Source: Steromphala cineraria (Eukaryota > Mollusca > Gastropoda > Trochida > Trochidae). Taken from it: a DNA stretch of 64,000 nt. The translations under genes and the position numbers were made by a program. A model generated the notes under the pieces. That model saw only the letters and a list, made by a program, of their open reading frames with translations, searched no databases and was not told the DNA's origin. Positions 5,882-41,252 of the stretch are shown here, piece by piece (the stretch's first letter is position 1; each line of letters opens with the position of its first letter). The stretch lies in the NCBI GenBank assembly GCA_916613615.1, contig OU744725.1, positions 69,900,754-69,964,753 of the forward strand, given 5' to 3'.

Positions 5882-7286
5882 CTGCCCGAAGACGATAACC
5901 TTAGTATCACAGATACTGATGTTATGTTAGCATTTAGGAAAATTAACAGGAGGAAATCAAGTGGACCCGACGGAGTACCTGGCATTGCACTTAAGGAATG
6001 TTGTGAACAGCTGTGTGGGATTTTTAAAGTGATGTTTCAAATGTCACTTGACACTCATTATATACCATCAATATGGAAGACATCGCATATCATCCCCGTT
6101 CCGAAAAAGGCGAAACCCTCTGTCCTCAATGATTACCGTCCAGTGGCCCTTACCCCTATAATCATGAAATCTTTTGAACGTATTGTCTTGAACCTGATTA
6201 GATTGAATACTGGACATCAGTTGGATCCTTTACAGTTTGCTTACAGGGCAGGACGCGGTGTGGAAGATGCACTCATTTCTCTTCTTCACAAAGTCTATAC
6301 TCACCTTGATAACTCAAAGTCTTATGTAAGAATTCTATTTGCAGATTTTTCCTCAGCGTTTAACACCATCCAACCACATCTTATGGTTAAGAAATTGTTC
6401 AACATGGGAGTAAACAGTAACCTCATTAAATGGGTGGAAGTTTTTTTAATTAATCGTCCCCAAAGTGTTCGAGTTAATTCTACGCTCTCTGAAGTGAATC
6501 TCCTGAGTACTGGTGCTCCTCAAGGCTGCGTCCTGTCGCCTGTTTACTCTCTATACAAATGACTGTGTATCTCTATTTTCCTCCTGTTTGAATTTCAAGT
6601 TTGCAGATGATGCCGCTTTGGTTGGGTTCATTCACCAATCAGAATTAGACTATAGAGAAAATATTGATTCATTTAACCAATGGTGTAAAGACAATTTTCT
6701 ATCCCTGAACATTAGTAAAACAAAGGAAATGATAATTGACTTCCGCAGAAAAAAGGAAAACCTGGAGCCAGTTACTATTGACGGACAGGAAGTTGAAGTA
6801 GTAGACGAGTACAAATACCTGGGAACCATAATTGATGATAAACTCTCATGGAAATCTAATACACACCGTGTCCATGCTAAAGCTCAACAAAGACTTTTCT
6901 TCCTGCGAAAATTAAGATCTTTTAATGTTGATACATGTATTCTAAAATTGTTCTATCAAACTTTCATCAATAGCATTCTGACTTTCAGTTTTCATGCATG
7001 GTATGGCAATCTTCCCCTATCACTGAAAAATAAAATCGACAAAATTGTAAATATAGCCAGCAAAATTATCGGCATCAATCTTGAACACCTTTCCTTTCAG
7101 TTTGATTCAAAAGTTCAAAAGAAAGCTCTAGCCATCCAATGTGACCCATCCCACTTTCTAAATGAATGTTATGAATTTTTACCTTTTGGACGTCGTTTCA
7201 AAATTTGGTATTTCAAAACTAATAGAAGTACAAAATCATTTGTTCCATACAGTATCAAGATTTTAAATTTACATACAAAATTGTAA
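5882..7286 (+). pseudogene. LINE reverse transcriptase, frameshifted
   Basis: The open frame runs from at least 5882 without an initiating methionine and reads into the RT domain. SSGPDGVPG, NDYRPVALT and DPLQFAYRAGRG are recognisable, followed by the first catalytic aspartate in FADFSSAFNT and by STGAPQGCVLSP. A one-base frameshift at about 6540 then moves the frame by +1. The second frame holds the FADDAA catalytic box, the thumb region (SLNISKTKEM) and DEYKYLGTIID, and stops at 7286. A single protein with both catalytic halves cannot be made, so the copy is dead. Family features match RNA-directed DNA polymerases of Rex/CR1-type LINEs. The exact clade is inferred from the tail and motifs. 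Confidence 0.85.
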
Positions 7287-7527: not shown

Positions 7528-8213
7528 GGCCTGTAAGGCTCGATGGGCTTATTGCATTATTTGCTCTTCCAGTCAGTACTTCAAAGTGAAGTCATGTGTA
7601 CTAACGTTAAAATGGGAAAGCACTATAGCTGTATATGCTCTAATCACAGAGGTCAGCAAAATTGGATCGAGGACAATATCTCTCCATCGTTAACCAAGTC
7701 GTATATCTATCAGATGAGCATGGATCAGAAGACTTCACTTGATAAGAAATGATTTCACTGTGACTAATCAAACGTGACCTAGCTCCGACCACTTTGTTGG
7801 CTAGATAGGACAGACGTTCATAAGACTTAATGATAAAATAATTTAGACAAATTCTCCAAAAGAATTTAGATTGAATGCATATTTTCGTAGGTAGCAAATA
7901 TTTTTTTATTTAACAGTACTGTTTGACTTTTAAATTTTAGTGACACAAATCCATTGTTAAAATGTTGCTGTTGTAAAGGGTGTTCATATTGCTAAAATTT
8001 ATCAAACGTTTTTAATTTCATTAATGTTATGATTTTTCCAATTTTAGATTGTATTGTTGATGCAATTTGGAATAATTCTGCGGATTTCCAAAAACGGTAA
8101 GTTTATCTCCATTCGACCATGACAGCAATGTGTATTTGAACTATATTCTTTCATATTGACTCGAGTGTGCTGTCATGATGCCCAAGCACGATCTCAATGA
8201 ACCGACATTCAAA
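7528..8213. other. No gene seen
   Basis: AT-rich sequence between the LINE tail and the minisatellite. Only short unsupported open frames on either strand. Confidence 0.5.
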
Positions 8214-9140
8214 TAGTATTAGTTTTAGCTGGAATAACATTGACCTGAAAGTGTTAGTTTTAGCCGGAGAATCAAGAAACCCAAAAGTGTTAATTTTAGG
8301 CAGAGTAACAAGAAACCCGAAAGTGTTAGTTTTAGCCAGAGTAACAAAAAATCGAAAAGAGTTAGTTTTAGCTGGGGTAACAAGAAACCCAAAAGTGTTA
8401 GTTTTTGCTGGAGTAACAAGAAATCCAAAAGTGCTAGTTTTAGCTGGAGTAACAAGAAATCCAAAAGTGCTAGTTTTAGCTGGAGTAACAAGAAAACCAA
8501 CAGTGTAAGTTTTAGCCAGAGAAACAAGAAACCCGAAAGTGTTACTTTTAGCCAGAGTAACAAGAAACCCGAAAGTGTTACTTTTAGCTGGGGTAACAAG
8601 AAACCCGAAAGTGTTACTTTTAGCCGGAGTAACAAGAAACCTGAAAGTGTTACTTTTAGCCGGAGTAACAAGAAACCCTAAAGTGTTACTTTTAGCCGGA
8701 GTAACAAGAAACCCTAAAGTGTTACTTTTAGCCGGAGTAACAAGAAACCCGAAAGTGTTACTTTTAGCTGGAGTAACAAGAAACCCGAAAGTGTTACTTT
8801 TAGCTGGGGTAACAAGAAACCCGAAAGTGTTACTTTTAGCCGGAGTAACAAGAAACCCTAAAGTGTTATTTTTAGCCGGAGTAACAAGAAACCCTAAAGT
8901 GTTACTTTTAGCCGGAGTAACAAGAAACCCTAAAGTGTTACTTTTAGCCGGAGTAACAAGAAACCCGGAAGTGTTACTTTTAGCCGGAGTAACAAGAAAC
9001 CCGAAAGTGTTACTTTTCGCTGGGGTAACAAGAAACTCGAAAGTGTTAGTTTTAGTCAGAGTAACAAGAAACCAAAAAGTGTTACTTTTAGTTGGAGTAA
9101 CAAGAAACCTGAAAGTGTTAGTTTTAGCTGGAGTAACAAG
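8214..9140. repeat. 36-bp minisatellite, about 26 copies
   Basis: Tandem units of gtgttacttttagccggag followed by taacaagaaacccgaaa, 36 bp each. Central units (about 8530-9010) are nearly identical, while units at both edges are more diverged, as expected from unequal exchange. Because 36 is a multiple of three and the unit lacks stops in several frames, long periodic open frames exist on both strands (about 209 residues plus, about 336 residues minus). I treat these as by-products, not proteins. Confidence 0.95.
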
Positions 9141-9844
9141 TTTCTCAATACAAGACATCAAAAGTTAAGAGCAACATGTTGTGTTAGAGGTTCGCATGTC
9201 CAATTGATAAGCAGTTTTATTGGGGTAGTTTATTCAAGACGCATAATTGCAGAACAGATTTTTCAAATGAAATGATAATGAAGAAAAGAGAATTGGAACA
9301 TCAAGCCCAATGTAAGCGAGGGTTTGAGACTATTTATATTCATTATTTCCACTTCCACATATATTAAACTGTTATGAATGCTCAATGTAATCTTTAAATT
9401 CGTTTGTCAGCTTAGGACAGGTCATGTCATAAACTGATAATCGAATCTCATGGCATTTCAGGAGACTTAGATTGCCATTATAGCTTTAATTAAAAATTTA
9501 CCTCTGGGATGTTTGATAATTACATTTCATGAAAACACAGTTGTGCAACAAAGATCTCAAATCTCAGTTAATTCTGATTTTTGATATTTGATTTCATCAG
9601 AATTTGACGTCATCGGAATAAAGTCTTCCTTTTGTTTATATGCATGTACGGAATGAACTGAAACTCAACTTTCACATCATGACAGTAAGAGACTATTTAT
9701 TAACTATTTAATAACAGAAAAGTCTATAAGTTTCTAAAGACGACAATTATTATTTCATAAATCGCATTATGCACAAACATTCATATATTTGCTTAATTAC
9801 CAAGTGTTGTTCTATTCCCTGTAATTAATATAGCAAACGTGTCT

Positions 9845-20530: not shown

Positions 20531-21534
20531 TCAATACTTCGTATGTCTACCTTCACCTGTTATGCAGGCAAACACTCGAGGTCGCATTGATGTCGTGAGA
20601 CGTCTGACGGGACGTTCCCCCATTTATCCTGTAGGGCTTGTTCGAGCTGCCTCAGGTTGACTGGAGGGTTTGCTCTATTCCTGATTCGCCTCCCTAGGCA
20701 GTTCCACATGTGTTAAATTGGAGAGAGATCAGGAGAACGTGACGGCCAAGGCAAGACGTTGATGTTATTGTTGTCCAGGAATGTTGACACTGCTTTTGCT
20801 GAATGTGCAGGCGCGTTATCATGTTGAAACAAAGTTCCCGGGTGATTCTGAAGAAATGGCAACACAACAAGACAAATAACTTGATCAATGTATCTTTGTG
20901 TTGTCATGTTACCCATGGCGATCACCAATGGTGACTTGTTTTCTCCTCGGGTACCGCCCAAAACCATCACACTTCCCCCACCGTGTGCCTGGACCTCTGC
21001 AACACAATTTGGAGCGTTTCTTTCACCCTGGCGATAAACGCGGGCTCTGCCATCATGCTTATATAAACAAAACCTACTTTCATCGTACATACAACTGAAC
21101 ATAACATTTGGCCAATCAAGAAGCTGCCAACTTCGTTCACGTCTTGTCCAGATTAATCGGTTATGTCGATGTTGACGTGTCAACGTTGGGCCACAATAAG
21201 GTCGACGGGCCCGAATCCCTCCTGCTCTTAACCTCCTTCTGACGGTTGATTGACTAAGTACACTCCCGAGAGCCATAGACGCCGATTCTGCAACTGTCAG
21301 GAATCGATTTCGGAGATGGAGAGTTCTTAAGTATCGGTCTTCCTGACGTGACGTCACATGTGGTCTACCTGTACGCGATCTATCTAATGTTGTTACCGTG
21401 TCCCTATATCGTTTCATCAAATTTTCGATGGTTTTTCGATGACAGCCGAATGTTCTTGCAATAAGAACATTTGAAGCACCCATGTCCTTCATACCAAAGG
21501 CCCTCCGGCGCTTTTCTTGGGTCAATCTAGGCAT
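20531..21534 (-). pseudogene. Tc1-type DD34E transposase with a stop at the catalytic glutamate
   Basis: It begins MPRLTQEKRRRAFGMKDMGA, then a paired-like DNA-binding region (residues about 1-110) and the DDE core. First Asp is in MYDESRF and second in FQHDNAPAH. The third catalytic position, 35 residues after the second Asp, lies in SPDLSPI-x-HMWN and is TAA instead of GAA, so translation ends at 20713. Downstream the frame continues to CLGRRIRNRANPPVNL, then a further frameshift separates it from SMRPRVFACITGEGRHTKY, whose stop is at 20531-20533. Full family length is about 330-340 residues. The element cannot move itself but its ends could be used by a related transposase. Confidence 0.9.
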
Positions 21535-33506: not shown

Positions 33507-33510
33507 AAAT
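33507..33510. other. Left AAAT target-site duplication of nested transposon
   Basis: AAAT precedes GAAGGGTTCAGAAGC. An identical AAAT (38523-38526) follows the right end. The 4-bp length is one criterion for superfamily assignment. Confidence 0.8.
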
Positions 33511-33540
33511 GAAGGGTTCAGAAGCAAAACGACCTAAGTC
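33511..33540. repeat. Left terminal inverted repeat of nested transposon
   Basis: 30 bp. It pairs with 38493-38522 with two mismatches. The adjoining bases 33531-33556 form a near-palindrome (gacctaagtc facing acttaggtcg). Confidence 0.92.
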
Positions 33541-33975
33541 ACACTTAGGTCGTTTTGACATAATTATATCACGTTAATCATTATGAAAAGATCTACCTTT
33601 TGGTGAAGTGTCATGTTGATAAAATAATTTTTGACGAAGTTACAGCTCATTGAAATTGGCATATTTATGCACAAATGACCTAAGTCAGACTTAGGTCGTT
33701 CTGACTCTGAATGGGCCAGACTTAGGTCTTTTTGCCTCCAAACTCTTCTGAAAGGAGGTGAAAATAGGTGTCATGACCACATGTCACTCTGGAAGCAGTG
33801 TCTGAGGAAACTGGTAACAACTTTTAAAATCGGAATCAAATTGGTAAGTTTTGAGACAGATATTGAAAATTAAGTGATAGGGTATATTTTTTTGTGATTT
33901 TTTTTTAAAAACAACGTTAATTACTACTTAAAATGTGCTAAAAGTTGGTTTCAGGACTTAGGTTGTTTTGGCACA
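33541..33975. repeat. Left subterminal repeats (GACTTAGGTCG words)
   Basis: Plus-orientation copies occur at about 33543, 33688, 33718 and 33955, with reverse copies at 33531 and 33677. The core is acttaggtcgttttg with variants such as ttaggttgttttgg. Mirror copies occur at the right end. Such clustered subterminal motifs are typical transposase binding sites, so the role is inferred. Confidence 0.8.
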
Positions 33976-34161
33976 AAACTATTGAAGCACAAAAGAAAAG
34001 GATAAAACATAAAGTAAAAGCTATAAAAGTCAAAAAGTCAAGTTGATTTCCTTTCCATCAACTTTTTGATATTTTCAATCGCATCTTTGATTTCCACTAT
34101 CATAATCTGTAAATAAATATGCAACAGTAGTAGTAATTTTCATGGGAAAATTGTTGAAATA

Positions 34162-34950
34162 GTGAATCTTTTTTTCCTTGTTGCAGGGATCTCCACGCTC
34201 AAAATTCCAATGAATGGCTTCAACTTGCCAACGGAACTTCAAATAGAAATTTTACAGTATATTTCCCCATGTGTTCTTGTCCAGGATGTTGCCGCTGTCT
34301 GTAAACTGTGGCATGAAATAGTAGAAAGTCGTTTTCTATGGGCAAAATTCACTTGTTTGGACCTTCGTTCCTGTGACTGTCGCATACAATATGAACAGCA
34401 TATAGACTTTTCAAAGTATATACCATTATGCGTGAATGTTCGAAAACTTATCATGAGCCTACAGCATGTCCCGGTCATTGGCAATGTAAGTCATGTTCCC
34501 AATCTGACAGAGTTGACAGTTTCTGGATGGAACTCTGATGGCATATCATACATTTTCAATGCTTTGACCTTATGTGTGAATTTGACACATCTCTTCACAC
34601 ATGGACTTAGAGATCTAACTGAAGATCAACAACTGGAAATTGTTATGAGGATGCCAAATCTTCGTTACTTGGACATTAGTAACTCCAAACCTGTTTCAGC
34701 TAAAACTGTTCGAAAGATGCTTTCAACAAGAAGAAGTCTGGCTTTTATCTCATTATTTCCGAAAGAAGACCCATTAGGGTGGTCATGTTTAGTCAATGAC
34801 TATGTTGGAGAGGTTTGTTTCGGACATTGTATCATGGAATTCCACGCAGCATGCTGTCAGAGAAGAGATGGGTTTACTCTGTTCCACATCCAAAGAGAGC
34901 ATGTGCAACTGATTAAAAGAGTCATTGAATCGATAGTGTTGATTTTCTAA
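34162..34950 (+). CDS. F-box / LRR-like protein encoded by the nested transposon
   Basis: An F-box-type segment (residues about 20-66) reads FNLPTELQIEILQYISPCVL and then DVAAVCKLWHEIVESRFLW. Leucine-rich-repeat-like segments follow (VPNLTELTVSGWNSD, MPNLRYLDISNS). F-box proteins recruit substrates to SCF ubiquitin ligases through Skp1, so a transposon-encoded one could act on host repair or silencing proteins (inference). The first 16 residues follow no clear start context. A polypyrimidine-CAG acceptor (about 34187) suggests splicing, and Met17 at 34210 (MNGFNLPTEL) is the likelier start. The stop at 34948 is only two codons before, and in frame with, the 831-residue ORF. Confidence 0.75.
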   Translation: MNLFFLVAGISTLKIPMNGFNLPTELQIEILQYISPCVLVQDVAAVCKLWHEIVESRFLWAKFTCLDLRSCDCRIQYEQHIDFSKYIPLCVNVRKLIMSLQHVPVIGNVSHVPNLTELTVSGWNSDGISYIFNALTLCVNLTHLFTHGLRDLTEDQQLEIVMRMPNLRYLDISNSKPVSAKTVRKMLSTRRSLAFISLFPKEDPLGWSCLVNDYVGEVCFGHCIMEFHAACCQRRDGFTLFHIQREHVQLIKRVIESIVLIF

Positions 34951-34956
34951 ATCAAA

Positions 34957-37452
34957 ATGGAGAAACTCACAACTGAAGATGTCTTACAAATGTTGTTTAA
35001 TGATGATTCAGAGAGTGACAGTGACTCAGTATTTGAACTGGACAACACTCAAAAGACACTTCAAGAGTCCATTGAATTTGCAATTGAATCTGCAGCAAAT
35101 TTACATGTTGCTGATTCACCAATTGATGATCAGAATGATGATGTTGTTTTGCCGTCAGATCCAAAAGAAACCAGTTTTGTGCCTGACTCCAATTCATCTG
35201 ATCTGGAAGACGATGTTTCATTGCCAACAGATGTTAAAGATCCTGATTTCGTGCCTGATTCGCATTCGTCTGAGGATACTGACGACTGTGATAACAATAA
35301 ATCAGTTCCAATACGTAATATGGCTTCTTTCATCGTTGACAAGCAGATGGAATGTCAAACTGAAGTACTTGAAGAACATCCTGCAGAACGTCCTGAATAT
35401 CAAATGTTAAACACAGATGTCATTGCAGCTCAGGTTGATGTGTCCGAGGCATCTGGTGGTATAGGTGTAGCAGCGACAGTTGACTCGACAGCTAAATTAG
35501 ATTGTGTTATGGAATTTGAGGAGACAACAGATGACAATGTGCCTAATGACAAAAATGATGATGTTTATGATTTTCTTAAAAGAAGAAAAACGGCAAATCC
35601 TTCAGACTGGAAAAGAACTGTCCAGAAAAGGAAACGAAGCACTGGTCAGGAATATAGCAATGCCAGTAACAAAAAAGTAGCTGCAAAGAAACTAAAATCA
35701 AGAAGTTGTCGTGCAAAATGTTTTGAAAAACTTGGTAACCATGCCCAGGTAGTTTTCAATGAATTCTACAAATTAGGCAACAAAAGAGAGCAAGATATGT
35801 ACCTTTGTGGATTGATCGATTCATCAACAGAGAAAATGCAACACAAACCGAGAGCAGAAACTCCGAGACATAGAAGCTGCCCCTACAAGTATCATGTTAT
35901 TATGGCAGATGGAGCACGTCGCCAGATATGCTATGGATGCTTCCTTCAAGTTCATGCTGTGGATCGATCACGCATAAGACATATCCTAGGGTCTGATAAT
36001 CCAATGTCTCCTCCGCCTGATAAAAGAGGACGACACGTTCCAAGTAACAAGATACCTGAAGAGGTAATCATGAAAATTAAAGATCATATCAAAAGTTTTG
36101 CCCCAGTGAAATCACATTACTCGCCTAAAGATAACCCTAATAAACAGTATCTGCCAGCTCATCTCAACATCAGGAGGATGTGCAGAATGTGTCTCAGGGA
36201 ATACGAACCAGATACCTGGGAAGCCATGGAAAATAACATGGAGTGTCAACCTGTTATAACAGAGTATGCATACAGATCAGTGTTTAGTGAATATTCACTG
36301 TCCTTTGGATATCCCCGTACTGACACCTGTGGTACCTGTGATCTATTGGAGTCTAAAGTAGCAGTTGAGGAAGATGCCGAGCAGATGGAAAAGCTTCAAG
36401 CTGAGAAGGACAAGCATTTGTATCATGCAAACCTGTCCTATGATGAAATGAAACAGGATCGTAAATGTGCACAAGACTCATGGGAGGTTGAGCGCAACTT
36501 TAACCAGAATGACCCATGCTCAAAAGAAGCAATTGACATGTACTCTTTTGATTATCAAAAGAATTTCATGATCCCAAACTTAACCCACACAGAAATGTAC
36601 TACAGCAGACAATTAAACATGTTCAATTTCGGAATCCATGACCATGTAAATGGCGATGGTATAATGTGCATCTATCCAGAAACAGTGGCCAAAAAAGGGG
36701 GCTCTGAAGTTGCTTCATGCCTTAAGAAGGTTCTTCAGAATAGACAATCGGGAGCGAAAGCCTGCATTGTCTATTCAGATGGATGTGGGGGACAGAATAG
36801 GAATCATGATATGGTGTCTTTTTTTCAAAGTCAAATTTACTATGGTAAGTTTGAAAGTATCAACCACAAGATACTACTTAGAGGCCACACACGTCTGGCC
36901 AATGATCGCGATTTTGGCATCATCCAGCAAAGAACAAAGGTTGAAAGCATCGTTACACCATCAGACCTAAAGGAAGTAATTGAGAAAGCAAGGGTTTACC
37001 CAAGTGCCTTCAAAGTTGAGGAAATGCAAATGTCAGACTTCAAGGATTTTAGAGATCTGAGCACCAGAAGCATCAAAACAGTTTTCAAAGATGCTAATGG
37101 AGGAAAGGTTGGCTTCTCAAAGGTACGATGGTTCAGTTATGGCACAAGCGAAGAGATCGACTGGGAGACTGGACAAGTGAGACAAATCAAACATGAAGAT
37201 CAGGTCTGGTGTAGGTACACCCTTGACAAAGCAGAAGCTTGGAAGAAAGTTCCAATCCTAAAGCGTGGAGCTTTCACTATGGATCTGTGTGAGAAGTACA
37301 ACGCACCAATCAAGCTGAAGCGTTGCAAATGGCAAGATATCTTAAAACAGATACCCTACATACCAGATCTGGAGAAGCGCACATTCTTTGAGATGCTTCC
37401 ACATGACACCAACTCTGATGAGGAGAGTGAATACTGTGATGACAGTGATTAA
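34957..37452 (+). CDS. 831-residue putative transposase (YSDGCGGQN family)
   Basis: Order: acidic N-terminus with a duplicated block (LPSDPKETSFVPDSNSSD and LPTDVKDPDFVPDSHSSE, residues about 65-105); basic nuclear-localisation-like stretch (KRRK to KRKR, about 208-226); Cys pairs CRMC (409-412) and CGTC (458-461); then a core with FDYQKN (Asp532), YSDGCGGQNRNHD (Asp608) and LRGHTRLANDRDF (Asp650/652); acidic tail. Proteins with YS/FSDxCGGQN are widespread in invertebrates and usually listed as uncharacterised (I recall the label DUF7869). The spaced acidic motifs look like an RNase H/DDE fold. Its place between matched terminal repeats supports a transposase role, by inference. The ORF has no internal stop or frameshift. 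Confidence 0.75.
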   Translation: MEKLTTEDVLQMLFNDDSESDSDSVFELDNTQKTLQESIEFAIESAANLHVADSPIDDQNDDVVLPSDPKETSFVPDSNSSDLEDDVSLPTDVKDPDFVPDSHSSEDTDDCDNNKSVPIRNMASFIVDKQMECQTEVLEEHPAERPEYQMLNTDVIAAQVDVSEASGGIGVAATVDSTAKLDCVMEFEETTDDNVPNDKNDDVYDFLKRRKTANPSDWKRTVQKRKRSTGQEYSNASNKKVAAKKLKSRSCRAKCFEKLGNHAQVVFNEFYKLGNKREQDMYLCGLIDSSTEKMQHKPRAETPRHRSCPYKYHVIMADGARRQICYGCFLQVHAVDRSRIRHILGSDNPMSPPPDKRGRHVPSNKIPEEVIMKIKDHIKSFAPVKSHYSPKDNPNKQYLPAHLNIRRMCRMCLREYEPDTWEAMENNMECQPVITEYAYRSVFSEYSLSFGYPRTDTCGTCDLLESKVAVEEDAEQMEKLQAEKDKHLYHANLSYDEMKQDRKCAQDSWEVERNFNQNDPCSKEAIDMYSFDYQKNFMIPNLTHTEMYYSRQLNMFNFGIHDHVNGDGIMCIYPETVAKKGGSEVASCLKKVLQNRQSGAKACIVYSDGCGGQNRNHDMVSFFQSQIYYGKFESINHKILLRGHTRLANDRDFGIIQQRTKVESIVTPSDLKEVIEKARVYPSAFKVEEMQMSDFKDFRDLSTRSIKTVFKDANGGKVGFSKVRWFSYGTSEEIDWETGQVRQIKHEDQVWCRYTLDKAEAWKKVPILKRGAFTMDLCEKYNAPIKLKRCKWQDILKQIPYIPDLEKRTFFEMLPHDTNSDEESEYCDDSD

Positions 37453-37995
37453 TGAACAGAAACATGACACAATGGTTAACTGCAGTTGCATTAGTTTGAC
37501 ATTGTATGCATTTTGTGACGGACAGTCACTTTGTTCGAGGTTCATCTGATTTGTTCTTACCCTAGTAAAGTAATATCAGAATGATTTTTTCTGACATTCA
37601 TGCTGACATGCACTGATGAGAATCATCAAAACTAGTACTGATTCAGAAGCACTAGCAGGTTAACATTGAATTTTATTCGTTCTTTCAATCTCAAGTTCAC
37701 CTTTATTGAAGTTACTGTTACATTAAATGTTACGAAAGGACATAACAGATGTATTGTTTCATATGGTTAAAGTTTCACATTTTCAAATTTAATTGTTTGT
37801 GTTATCAGAACCTGTTATTTTTTAAGATCTTTTTTTATATGAGTCACCAATGTTCTTTCTGTGACACAAGTAAAAGTAAGGATCAAAAGTTTCTATATTC
37901 TGCAATACGTTTCTTCTTTTTCTAATGTTTGAATTTAGAAGTTAGAGACATATTTCTTGCTTATTGTAGTTTCTATTCAGGATGTTTCAAGTTTG

Positions 37996-38001
37996 AATAA
38001 A
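37996..38001 (+). terminator. Poly(A) signal AATAAA for the nested transposon genes
   Basis: AATAAA in gtttgaataaatttgatgg, about 540 bases after the 831-residue ORF and before the right subterminal repeats. Confidence 0.5.
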
Positions 38002-38225
38002 TTTGATGGTACTTAAAATGTTGTTGTTTTATCATTCTTAATGCTGTGACCAATGAAACGGATTATTTTTTAGATATCATCAATACAAAACACGTTATGT
38101 ATATTGAATCAAAATGCAATACTTTCATTAATAACAAAATAAGCCAATTCAATAGTTAAAATATAGTTTGGCTATCATAATTGTCATAATAATGTGATTT
38201 TAATTACATGAACTTACAGAATAAT

Positions 38226-38306
38226 GACTTAGGTTGTTTTGCTTTTCAAATTCGGGGACTTAGGTCGTTCTGCCATGAAAAATATACCTGACTTAGGTCA
38301 TTCTGC
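38226..38306. repeat. Right subterminal repeats of nested transposon
   Basis: gacttaggttgttttgc (38226), gacttaggtcgttctgcc (38257) and gacttaggtcattctgc (38290) are in the same orientation as most left-side copies. The word also forms part of the terminal repeat at 38493. Confidence 0.85.
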
Positions 38307-38492
38307 TACAAAACAGCAATGGGAAAATCATTTAAGCCATGATAACTCTGTAAATACTATTTGAAACTTCGTTAAAGTTTAGCATTGTGTATTGTATACC
38401 ATAACAAAAGTCAAAATAAAAAAACATTGACACTTCCCCGAATAGTTTTAAAGAAAGTAGTTTTTCGTGTCTCCTGAAAAGTTGCAAAAAGG

Positions 38493-38522
38493 GACTTAGG
38501 TCGATTTGCTTCTGAACCTTTC
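38493..38522. repeat. Right terminal inverted repeat of nested transposon
   Basis: gacttaggtcgatttgcttc followed by tgaacctttc. Inverted match to 33511-33540 with two mismatches, followed by the AAAT duplication. Confidence 0.92.
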
Positions 38523-39210
38523 AAATGTTGTTGACGCGAAGCAATCGGTTTTTGACTTATTCAACTTTTTCGGAGACCGAGAATTTTCTCCCGAGAGGGA
38601 CGGAACGTTTGTGGGAATTTTTCCCATGAAAAATCGAGGGTGCTCGGAACATTCATTCGAGAATTTTCACTATTTCTAGTGCGGGCCTCGCCGCAAACCA
38701 TGGGAAAAATTGACCCTTAGCACCCAAACTTTCAAAATCAATATCATGTTTAGTGAAATTCAAAAACTATTTTCGGTGTTATTCCGAGGTCTGAAACATT
38801 TTCCTTATATGTCGGGCGAGGTCCTTCCATTCGAGAACAACCAATTTCATGGGCAACGTTGCCCAGTGCCTCGGATTTCAGAACACAAAGTCCGAGAGAT
38901 TGCTTTCGCGCTTGATATTTCACTAACCAAGCGGCGCGCTCTAACACATGAGATATCGTTGGAAAGAGGATGAAATTGCCTTCATTTTGGCATATCATTT
39001 GTATGTCCGCCCATACAATAATTATACTATAAAGGCCGCAAAAGTATGTACTTTCGCGCTTGATATTTCACTAACCAAGCGGCGCGCTCTAACACATGAG
39101 ATATCGTTGGAAAGAGAATAAAAGTGCCATCATTTTGGTATATCATATGTATATGCGCAAAGAGAAATAAAGATGCAAGAAGCCCCGCAAAATGTGTTGA
39201 TGTCCTTTTT
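38523..39210. repeat. Resumption of piggyBac left-arm repeats
   Basis: After the nested element, a segment like 33010-33130 recurs (about 38615-38735), then two array units (near 38920 and 39069). The last stretch (39060-39210) repeats 32450-32600 almost exactly, including agagaaataaagatgcaaga. This suggests an internal duplication around the nested insertion. Confidence 0.75.
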
Positions 39211-39647: not shown

Positions 39648-41252
39648 ATGCCAAGATTTAGAGGAAGGAGACCGAGGACTCGGAACTATGGGGGGCCGTA
39701 TGCTTCAGACGACGAGTTCTCTTCCGAAGTCCATGCTGATGAAACTTCTGATATGGAAACTACTGATGATAGTGATGTGAAAAGTGATAGTGATGGATTG
39801 GTATCGGACATGGACAGTGATCCAGACATAAGGAACATTGCAAGACGTATACTAGCTGCTACGGCGAGCGCAGCTTCTGCTGGTTCTTCCACTGACGAGT
39901 TCGTTGACTTGGATGATCAAGACAGTGACACCTCTGATACAGGGGAGGGGGATTTTGCGGCAAACTGGAAGGACGGGCCGAGGCCACGTGGACGTGTTGA
40001 TCTGCCTTTTACGGGACAGACTGGGCTGGGACAGTTCAAAGAATTGCCTGAGCAACCAAAACCTATTGACTATTTCGAAATGTTCTTACAAGAAGATGAT
40101 TACGGATTAATGGCAACGGAAACCAATAGATACTTTCACCAAGAATGCGACGACGAGGTCCTCCCGCCCAAGTCAAGAATGCGCCAGTGGAAGGATACGA
40201 ATGCTGAGGAAATGAAAGTATTCGTAGCGATGACTATCGCCATGTCCTTAGTTGTACAGAGGAACTTTTCAGAGTATTGGTCGACTAGTGATGTTACCTC
40301 GACGCCTTTCTTCCCAAAGTGTATGCCTAGAGACAGGTTTTGGTTGTTGCTCACGTTTCTTCACTTATCTGATAACAGTACAATGCCAGGACGAAACACA
40401 CCACAGTTTTCCCCACTCAATAAACTTGGAATATTGTATAACCGCATCATACATCGGTTCTCAAGAGTTTATATACCGCATCAACATATCTCAGTTGATG
40501 AGGGATTGGTGCCTTGGAAAGGCAACCTCAGCTTCAAGGTTTACAACCCTGACAAACCTAAGAAGTATGGCATCAAGGCTTACATGTTGTGTGACTCGCA
40601 CAATGGATACGTCTGTAAATTCAAACTCTACACTGGAAGAACCAACGAAGTTTCTATTGGAGGGAAAACGTATGATTTGGTCATGGATTTGGTCAAAGAT
40701 TACTCTCGTAAGGGATATCATGTTTACATGGACAATTTCTATTCATCTGTGACATTGTACATCAATCTGTGGAAGTGTGGTTTCGGTGCGACGGGGACGT
40801 TGCGAGGAAATAGGAGCGGAATCCCAGTCAAACTGAAGAGAAAAACGAAGAAACCAGAGAAAGGTTCTATGTTGCAGCAACACAACAAAGAACTTCTGAT
40901 CGTCAGGTATGAGGACAGAAAGTCAGTCTTGCTTATGTCCACTGTTGAGGACACGGAAGATGTCGAGTCGGGAAGGAAGAACAGGGTGACTGGAGAACCA
41001 ATTACAAAACCTCGGATCGTTCATGAATACAACAAGTACATGGGTGGCGTCGACCGGGCCGGTCAGATGTTGTCGTACACACCGTTCAAGATGAAAACTC
41101 TAAAGTGGTGGAAGCGTGTGTGGTTTCATATCCTCAACGTTGCTCTTTTGAATGCCTACGTTCTGTACAAAGAACTCTCCAAAGATAAAACACTGAAGAC
41201 AAACAGAGAATTTAGGAAAGAAATAGTTCAACACCTTTGCCGACAGAGATAA
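39648..41252 (+). CDS. piggyBac transposase, catalytic core (C-terminus frameshifted)
   Basis: A 534-residue ORF. Acidic N-terminus (residues 20-110), then the DDE_Tnp_1_7 core. Catalytic Asp284 in ISVDEGLVPWKG, Asp362 in YMDNFYSS and Asp469 in GGVDRAGQM match the family's DDD triad. HILNVALLNAYVLYKEL is the usual end of the core. PiggyBac enzymes cut and paste at TTAA without leaving a footprint. Start chosen at ATG 39648, with an in-frame TAG just upstream. The frame leaves the family alignment at EIVQHLCRQR and stops, while the linker and cysteine-rich domain continue in the next frame, so this copy lacks the end-binding domain unless frameshifting occurs. Confidence 0.92.
   Translation: MPRFRGRRPRTRNYGGPYASDDEFSSEVHADETSDMETTDDSDVKSDSDGLVSDMDSDPDIRNIARRILAATASAASAGSSTDEFVDLDDQDSDTSDTGEGDFAANWKDGPRPRGRVDLPFTGQTGLGQFKELPEQPKPIDYFEMFLQEDDYGLMATETNRYFHQECDDEVLPPKSRMRQWKDTNAEEMKVFVAMTIAMSLVVQRNFSEYWSTSDVTSTPFFPKCMPRDRFWLLLTFLHLSDNSTMPGRNTPQFSPLNKLGILYNRIIHRFSRVYIPHQHISVDEGLVPWKGNLSFKVYNPDKPKKYGIKAYMLCDSHNGYVCKFKLYTGRTNEVSIGGKTYDLVMDLVKDYSRKGYHVYMDNFYSSVTLYINLWKCGFGATGTLRGNRSGIPVKLKRKTKKPEKGSMLQQHNKELLIVRYEDRKSVLLMSTVEDTEDVESGRKNRVTGEPITKPRIVHEYNKYMGGVDRAGQMLSYTPFKMKTLKWWKRVWFHILNVALLNAYVLYKELSKDKTLKTNREFRKEIVQHLCRQR

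Follow-up and report, generated by a model that had tools for sequence, protein, structure and literature searches.

The window analysed here is a stretch of 64,000 bp from the genome of the gastropod Steromphala cineraria (1.27 Gb, 281 contigs). Between positions 33511 and 38522 it contains an element of 5012 bp with inverted ends, a 4-bp direct repeat at its flanks and two genes on the plus strand. Its features are listed below; copies B, C and D are further genomic copies, to which we return.

33507..33510, no strand: left target-site duplication, AAAT
33511..33540, plus strand: left terminal inverted repeat, begins GAAGGGTTCAGAAGC; same terminus in copies B, C and D
33530..33965, no strand: left cluster of GACTTAGGT words in both orientations, starting at 33530, 33676, 33688, 33719 and 33955
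33844..34186, plus strand: predicted leader intron, GTAAGT ... TTGTTGCAG, directly 5' of the F-box ORF
34210..34950, plus strand: ORF1, F-box protein of 246 aa, with the F-box at residues 5-48
34957..37452, plus strand: ORF2, protein of 831 aa with DUF7869, probable transposase
36550..36552, plus strand: codon of D532 (F-D-x-Q), candidate catalytic residue 1, present in 13/13 aligned proteins
36778..36780, plus strand: codon of D608 (YSDGCGGQN), candidate catalytic residue 2, 13/13 aligned
36904..36906, plus strand: codon of D650 (GHTRLANDRDF), candidate catalytic residue 3, 13/13 aligned
38226..38300, plus strand: right cluster, three GACTTAGGT words
38493..38522, minus strand: right terminal inverted repeat, paired with the left arm and seen in other copies too
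38523..38526, no strand: right target-site duplication, AAAT

The terminal arms are 30 bp long and about 94% complementary, with two mismatches, and AAAT lies at both flanks, just as an earlier sequence-only reading of this DNA had described. The symmetric word clusters that it reported are equally real: GACTTAGGTYR occurs eight times in the window, all eight within the element and near its ends, versus a mean of 0.04 in shuffled sequence. We infer that these subterminal words are probable transposase-binding sites. The two long ORFs are exactly as reported (246 and 831 aa), and they lie head to tail in one frame, with a gap of 6 nt between the stop of ORF1 and the ATG of ORF2. An acceptor-like sequence such as the one that ends the predicted leader intron is also found 5' of the F-box in two of the relatives described below (fam2 and c6). 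ORF1 matches the Pfam F-box-like family (7.8e-10, 38.8 bits against a cut-off of 24.3), and its leucine-rich-repeat (LRR) matches are all below the Pfam cut-off. F-box proteins are of the adaptor type that marks other proteins for destruction. For the 831-aa protein, the single significant Pfam match is to DUF7869 (7.2e-9, 35.9 bits against a cut-off of 26). As for the surroundings, a nearby ORF to the right of the element (39648-41252, plus strand) is open and encodes a piggyBac-type transposase of 534 aa (DDE_Tnp_1_7, 6.6e-90). Elsewhere in the window there is a minisatellite-looking ORF of 335 aa (8151-9158, minus strand) made of repeated units like LVTPAKSNTFGF and, by eye, reverse-transcriptase pieces and a Tc1-like transposase (5924-7286, plus strand, and 20713-21534, minus strand).

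A DNA search of the genome with both end regions recovered three more copies with the same ends, each with its own duplication: copy B (C7:53476911-53481143, ATAT), copy C (C7:17928153-17933141, AAAT) and copy D (C1:73521922-73526933, ATTT). Counting the window copy as A, all four end-defined copies have matching 4-bp duplications, and they agree in their outermost 15 bases, the sole exception being a single changed base at the right terminus of copy A. Copies C and D are 98.3 and 97.5% identical to the window copy, respectively. In copy B positions 47-817 are deleted, which removes the 5' part of the element together with the first part of the F-box gene; elsewhere it is 99.0% identical to the window copy, and its 831-aa ORF is open. 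In copies C and D both transposase ORFs are broken, and the F-box ORF (truncated in C, with stops in D, without its start in B) is full length in the window copy only. There is also a partial copy E (C32), 91.8-94.1% identical and with no defined ends. The window element is thus confirmed as a transposon that is present in several copies, has exact ends and is flanked by 4-bp duplications. Two outcomes had been named as fatal to this idea, that other copies would end elsewhere or lack the ORFs, and that the 831-aa family would consist mainly of single-copy host genes devoid of inverted repeats. Neither was observed: copies C and D have the same ends and retain the two gene regions, though with breaks at some points, and the family has several copies with inverted ends. 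A relic of a left end, 58 bp long and 86% identical, was seen at G000:C43:8508827-8508883 (L049).

With the 831-aa protein as query, tblastn against the genome gave at least 57 matches (54 of 143 candidates were scored) that merge to at least 46 loci, several of them in further elements with defined ends. Five copies of one family, fam2, could be end-mapped; they measure about 5.0-5.2 kb, are 98.0-99.4% identical, have ends GAAGGGTTAAGTGG (one GATGGG) and are flanked by AATT in four cases and AACT in one, a sixth locus (c5c) being without end mapping. The c6 family has two such copies, c6 itself (3.35 kb, AATT) and c1x (4.19 kb, perfect 20-bp ends, ATTT). Single elements were defined at c35 (5.43 kb, ATTT, with 22-bp ends CGTGGGTTCAGAACTAAAAGGT that pair perfectly), at c39 (5.83 kb, AATT) and at c1t, which is 8.2 kb long, is flanked by AATT and contains a tandem pair of transposase matches. 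Over the 14 end-defined elements the duplications are AATT (seven), ATTT (three), AAAT (two), ATAT (one) and AACT (one), so that 13 of 14 have the form AWWT. A matching duplication was part of the end search for c39, c6, c1t, c1x and c35, but the AWWT composition was not. Kolobok elements duplicate TTAA. The same duplication is reported for piggyBac (PMC5199201, in the part of that text available). Membership in either group was considered and rejected, with TTAA duplications in 0/14 of the end-defined elements.

At other loci the ends are less clear. The c40 region (C40:31608500-31621000; L058, L089, L090) has candidate ends GGATACCATGAAGCC, with two mismatches in 22 and AAGT on both sides, that would delimit an element of about 5.78 kb in which a transposase relative is followed downstream by an LRR/F-box-like ORF; it is not counted among the 14. 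The limits of c37 are ambiguous: the left end of its family is present, and the locus also lies within another inverted pair (AATT, 5280 bp). At c5b there are inverted arms of 142 bp with flanks that do not match, at c4x no convincing ends were found, and a search restricted to GAAGGGTT-type ends gave none for c5, c39b, c41b, c4, c7b and c5c within the stretches examined. Subterminal repeats like those of the window element are present in c35 (CACTTGGTAC, 10 in the terminal 700-bp stretches), and the same count gave few or none in fam2, c39 and c1x.

We aligned 13 of the proteins, namely those of the window, fam2 and eleven loci picked from the tblastn matches; three of these sequences were assembled from pieces on either side of a stop, and two pairs, c5b/c4 and c37/c1t, are near-duplicates. 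D532 (FDxQ), D608 (SDxCxGQN) and D650 (GHxxxxxD) are invariant in all 13, as are E575 and E584. E657 was set aside as third catalytic residue: 12 rows of the alignment have a residue at this position, and it is E in 11 of them, but Q in the window protein (copy A), as it also is in copies B and C. The D532-D608-D650 set fits a DDD transposase and is our candidate for catalysis. DUF7869 scores over the Pfam cut-off in fam2, c39, c1x and c7b and below it in c35 and c39b; Pfam did not find it in c40, c41b, c4 and c5b, where kinship is given by tblastn and the alignment. A PDB sequence search with the 831-aa protein had 0 hits, and a structure prediction for residues 201-831 from the single window sequence yielded an unusable model (mean pLDDT 34.7). 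Because the relatives were located through the 831-aa protein, its presence in each of them follows from the search itself, which does not hold for their inverted ends and duplications. The sequence-only reading took the YSDGCGGQN protein for the transposase, and we concur that the 831-aa DUF7869 protein is very probably one, because its relatives sit in several other end-defined elements and because three invariant D residues go together with 14 such elements with 4-bp duplications. DUF7869 carries no assigned function in Pfam, we found no naming of it in the literature searched, and the family here gains a probable function as transposase. No relatives were confirmed among viral, phage, plasmid and prokaryotic collections (a result that is uninformative for other eukaryotes), and 23 pattern loci from those collections (L001-L023) had no significant tblastn match.

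The F-box partner gene was described before as unusual. Its presence inside exact ends holds (7.8e-10), and the word understates the case, as it recurs in about seven related families. The 246-aa protein by itself gave 16 tblastn matches in the genome, comprising copies A-E, a 40% match 5' of the c5 transposase relative and weak others. In fam2 an F-box/LRR ORF of 276 aa (3.1e-10) lies 5' of the transposase, overlapping it by 14 nt in a different frame; among the end-mapped copies it is open in three of five, and the 594-aa transposase in all five. In c6 and c1x an F-box ORF (1.5e-9 and 7e-9) is followed, after one stop, by the transposase frame. The F-box ORF of c39 (2.3e-7) lies 3' of the transposase, and c4x, the second copy of the c39 family, has a broken F-box below the cut-off (0.00027). 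The downstream ORF of c40 has LRR over the cut-off and an F-box below it (0.015). Altogether, mapped ends enclose an F-box in fam2, c39, c6 and c1x as well as in the window family (copies A, C and D); an F-box/LRR gene is therefore inside the ends in four families (window, fam2, c6/c1x and c39), and about three more have an adjacent F-box match.

Genome-wide, at E <= 0.01, there are at least 109 F-box-like matches (150 of 278 candidates scored; 1.27 Gb). Such a match is found within 4 kb at 17 of the 46 listed transposase loci, always on the transposase strand (17/17) and upstream in 15 cases, downstream in two, against 0.04 expected for uniform placement (the copies are not independent). By spacing and identity these 17 loci fall into about seven families (3, 6, 2, 2, 2, 1 and 1 loci), three of which are known from coordinates alone, and outside the window family their transposases are 26-38% identical to that of the window. 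An F-box partner gene is thus a recurrent feature of the transposon lineage to which the window element belongs. At the remaining 29 listed loci the 4-kb surroundings contain no F-box-like match; among them, weaker or broken F-box sequence is present in copies B and E, c5, c40 and c4x. A profile of five F-boxes found nothing over the inclusion threshold in c1t, c37, c5b, c39b, c41b, c4, c35 and c7b (stretches examined), and since c1t/c37 and the OTU-bearing relatives show none there, the F-box is not universally required. A duplication of its own also flanks copy B, in which the 5' part and the beginning of the F-box gene are missing; this deletion may postdate insertion. Apart from these loci, F-box matches with identical scores are scattered over eight places (C1:60711496, C4:61549535, C6:66743297, C6:66751569, C37:64020290, C41:41086920, C44:43601881 and C4:40476634), and a second identical-score set over four (C3:81768427, C4:73691072, C6:29692647 and C32:55544285). 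Both sets are possibly further transposon-borne F-box families.

Some of the relatives carry another domain. In c35, c39b, c4 and c5b an OTU (deubiquitinase-like) domain is N-terminal to the transposase core in one ORF, with scores from 2.1e-6 to 9.3e-5 that are over the cut-off, two of them barely; these OTU-fused relatives are at L060, L056, L059 and L055. They are four of the six proteins scanned from a branch that includes c5b, c4, c39b, c35, c7b and c41b, and the Pfam scan did not find OTU in c41b and c7b. The maximum-likelihood tree sets the window, c39, c37/c1t, fam2 and c6 against c40 and the OTU-bearing branch. That the F-box came first and OTU later is one reading only of this tree, because it is midpoint rooted and c6 is a long branch.

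F-box genes were also seen beside transposases of another kind. Harbinger elements carry Myb/SANT and transposase ORFs. Three loci (L081, L098 and L099) were reached through weak F-box tblastn matches, and at L098 (C7:47807800-47813000) a Myb/SANT ORF (3.2e-13) is followed by an F-box ORF (5.4e-7) and a DDE_Tnp_4 transposase ORF (7.2e-22), with 7 nt between the F-box stop and the transposase ATG. A second copy, about 96% identical, is L099 (C7:30285500-30290900). At L081 (C35 around 2626351) an F-box ORF (4.2e-7) has an ATG 3 nt past its stop; the frame that follows is by eye like the L098 transposase, and Pfam found nothing in the pieces scanned. No Harbinger ends were found at L098. The F-box ORF closely 5' of the transposase ORF is a likeness to the window element, but the transposase family is different. 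C4:2690273 may be another F-box locus of Harbinger type.

The explanation towards which we lean, with somewhat more than even confidence, is that the window element is a cut-and-paste Sola2-like DNA transposon whose F-box protein is a long-kept accessory that would recruit SCF and be made together with the transposase. The DUF7869 protein would bind the subterminal words, cut at the GAAGGG...CCCTTC ends and insert the element into A+T-rich 4-bp targets. Both proteins would come from one transcription unit with the leader intron (donor at 33844, acceptor ending at 34186). The F-box protein would recruit the host SCF ubiquitin ligase through SKP1, and the SCF target, be it a host silencing factor or the transposase itself, would limit or regulate transposition. 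The OTU domain fused to some relatives could then be an alternative module acting on the ubiquitin system. If these F-box proteins work, the transposon brings its own substrate adaptor for the protein-destruction machinery of the host. A broader proposal, which we offer tentatively and at less than even confidence, is that F-box/LRR proteins are a dedicated class of mobile accessories, produced jointly with the transposase from ORFs set close to one another, common to Sola2-like and Harbinger elements and swapped for OTU elsewhere, that would steer the host ubiquitin system.

There are other ways to account for the F-box gene. One would be a host gene that lies beside a transposase by chance; the F-box between mapped ends in the copies and families named above, together with 17 of 46 loci observed where 0.04 were expected, leaves this next to no probability and refutes it for the families with an F-box inside the ends. 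A passive passenger, picked up several times in an F-box-rich genome and of no help to transposition, deserves more weight. The F-box proteins of the other families are only 17-23% identical to that of the window, a low identity that may be compatible with one capture or several; their placement varies, mostly upstream and downstream in c39, and many of the F-box loci are broken. Within families, the F-box dN/dS is 0.55 for A-D (12 changes) and 0.44 for A-E (29 changes), the other pairs having zero synonymous changes, and for the transposase it is 0.75-2.15 in the window family and 0.26 and 1.28, or uncountable, in fam2; these values are near neutral or uncountable and contain no clear signal of selection. 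However, the gene is found in about seven related families, always on the transposase strand and usually directly upstream, in a genome where F-box-like matches number at least 109 in 1.27 Gb. Moreover, open F-box ORFs persist across families whose transposases are about 34% identical, which suggests constraint on the F-box; taken together, these observations exceed what passive capture would easily give. We therefore regard the passenger as unlikely, though a real contender. A different possibility is that the F-box region is spliced onto the transposase to give a single F-box-transposase fusion, comparable to the OTU fusions of the relatives. In the window and c1x, ORF1 and ORF2 share a frame and are separated by just one stop codon, an acceptor-like sequence lies 5' of the c6 transposase core, and the c1x transposase frame is without M in its first 90 residues. 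Yet the fam2 ORFs overlap in different frames, the F-box of c39 is downstream, and the window, c37 and c39 proteins, each beginning with its own ATG, have N-termini that are alike by eye, so that a fusion seems improbable to us. An accessory protein made separately from the same transcription unit is what we prefer.

As to classification, for which the sequence-only reading had pointed to Sola and other DDE families, Sola elements are described, in the part of PMC10741241 available, as having a DDD transposase, 4-bp duplications and inverted ends of 11-1124 bp, with most elements of 2-9 kb, and the extract of PMC3627910 reports AWWT duplications (including ATAT, AAAT and ATTT) for Sola2 of social amoebae. 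The AWWT form is found in 13 of 14 end-defined elements here, the 30-bp arms and 5012 bp of the window element fall inside the Sola size ranges, and the three D residues invariant in 13/13 proteins (some of them near-duplicates) could correspond to the DDD described for Sola. The element is thus probably Sola2-like, being set beside Sola2 by published features rather than by sequence comparison. The alternative is a separate undescribed superfamily that shares AWWT by coincidence. The comparison by description only, a DUF7869 with neither a Pfam function nor a name in the literature searched, and the candidate ends of another kind at c40, with AAGT, all speak for it, but the AWWT pattern reported for Sola2 and the DDD residues and 4-bp duplications described for Sola speak against, and we consider a separate superfamily doubtful.

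The descriptions of Sola2, in the extracts we could consult, contain no F-box partner, and in the open-licence literature searched we found no description of an F-box gene inside Sola or Harbinger elements. The new point is the F-box gene carried by the window transposon and its relatives. According to the same part of PMC3627910, Sola2 of social amoebae may carry Fanzor1; such chimeras likewise have an extra gene, but it is Fanzor1 and not an F-box gene. Closer in content is Zisupton, for which a protein isoform with an F-box has been described (Bohne et al. 2012, via the available part of PMC12062965). Here too an F-box domain belongs to the product of a DNA transposon, although the superfamily is another and the F-box is a domain within an isoform, whereas in our elements it is a separate ORF. 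In Caenorhabditis F-box A2, a host F-box gene captured a transposase domain (PMC12062965, same extract). F-box genes are linked to transposon parts in that case as well, but there it is a host gene, and here transposons carry the F-box gene. The same extract of that work (published in 2025) names F-box capture by transposons as an alternative for which it found no evidence. The elements described here, multi-copy transposons with an F-box within exact ends in several families, are evidence for such capture.
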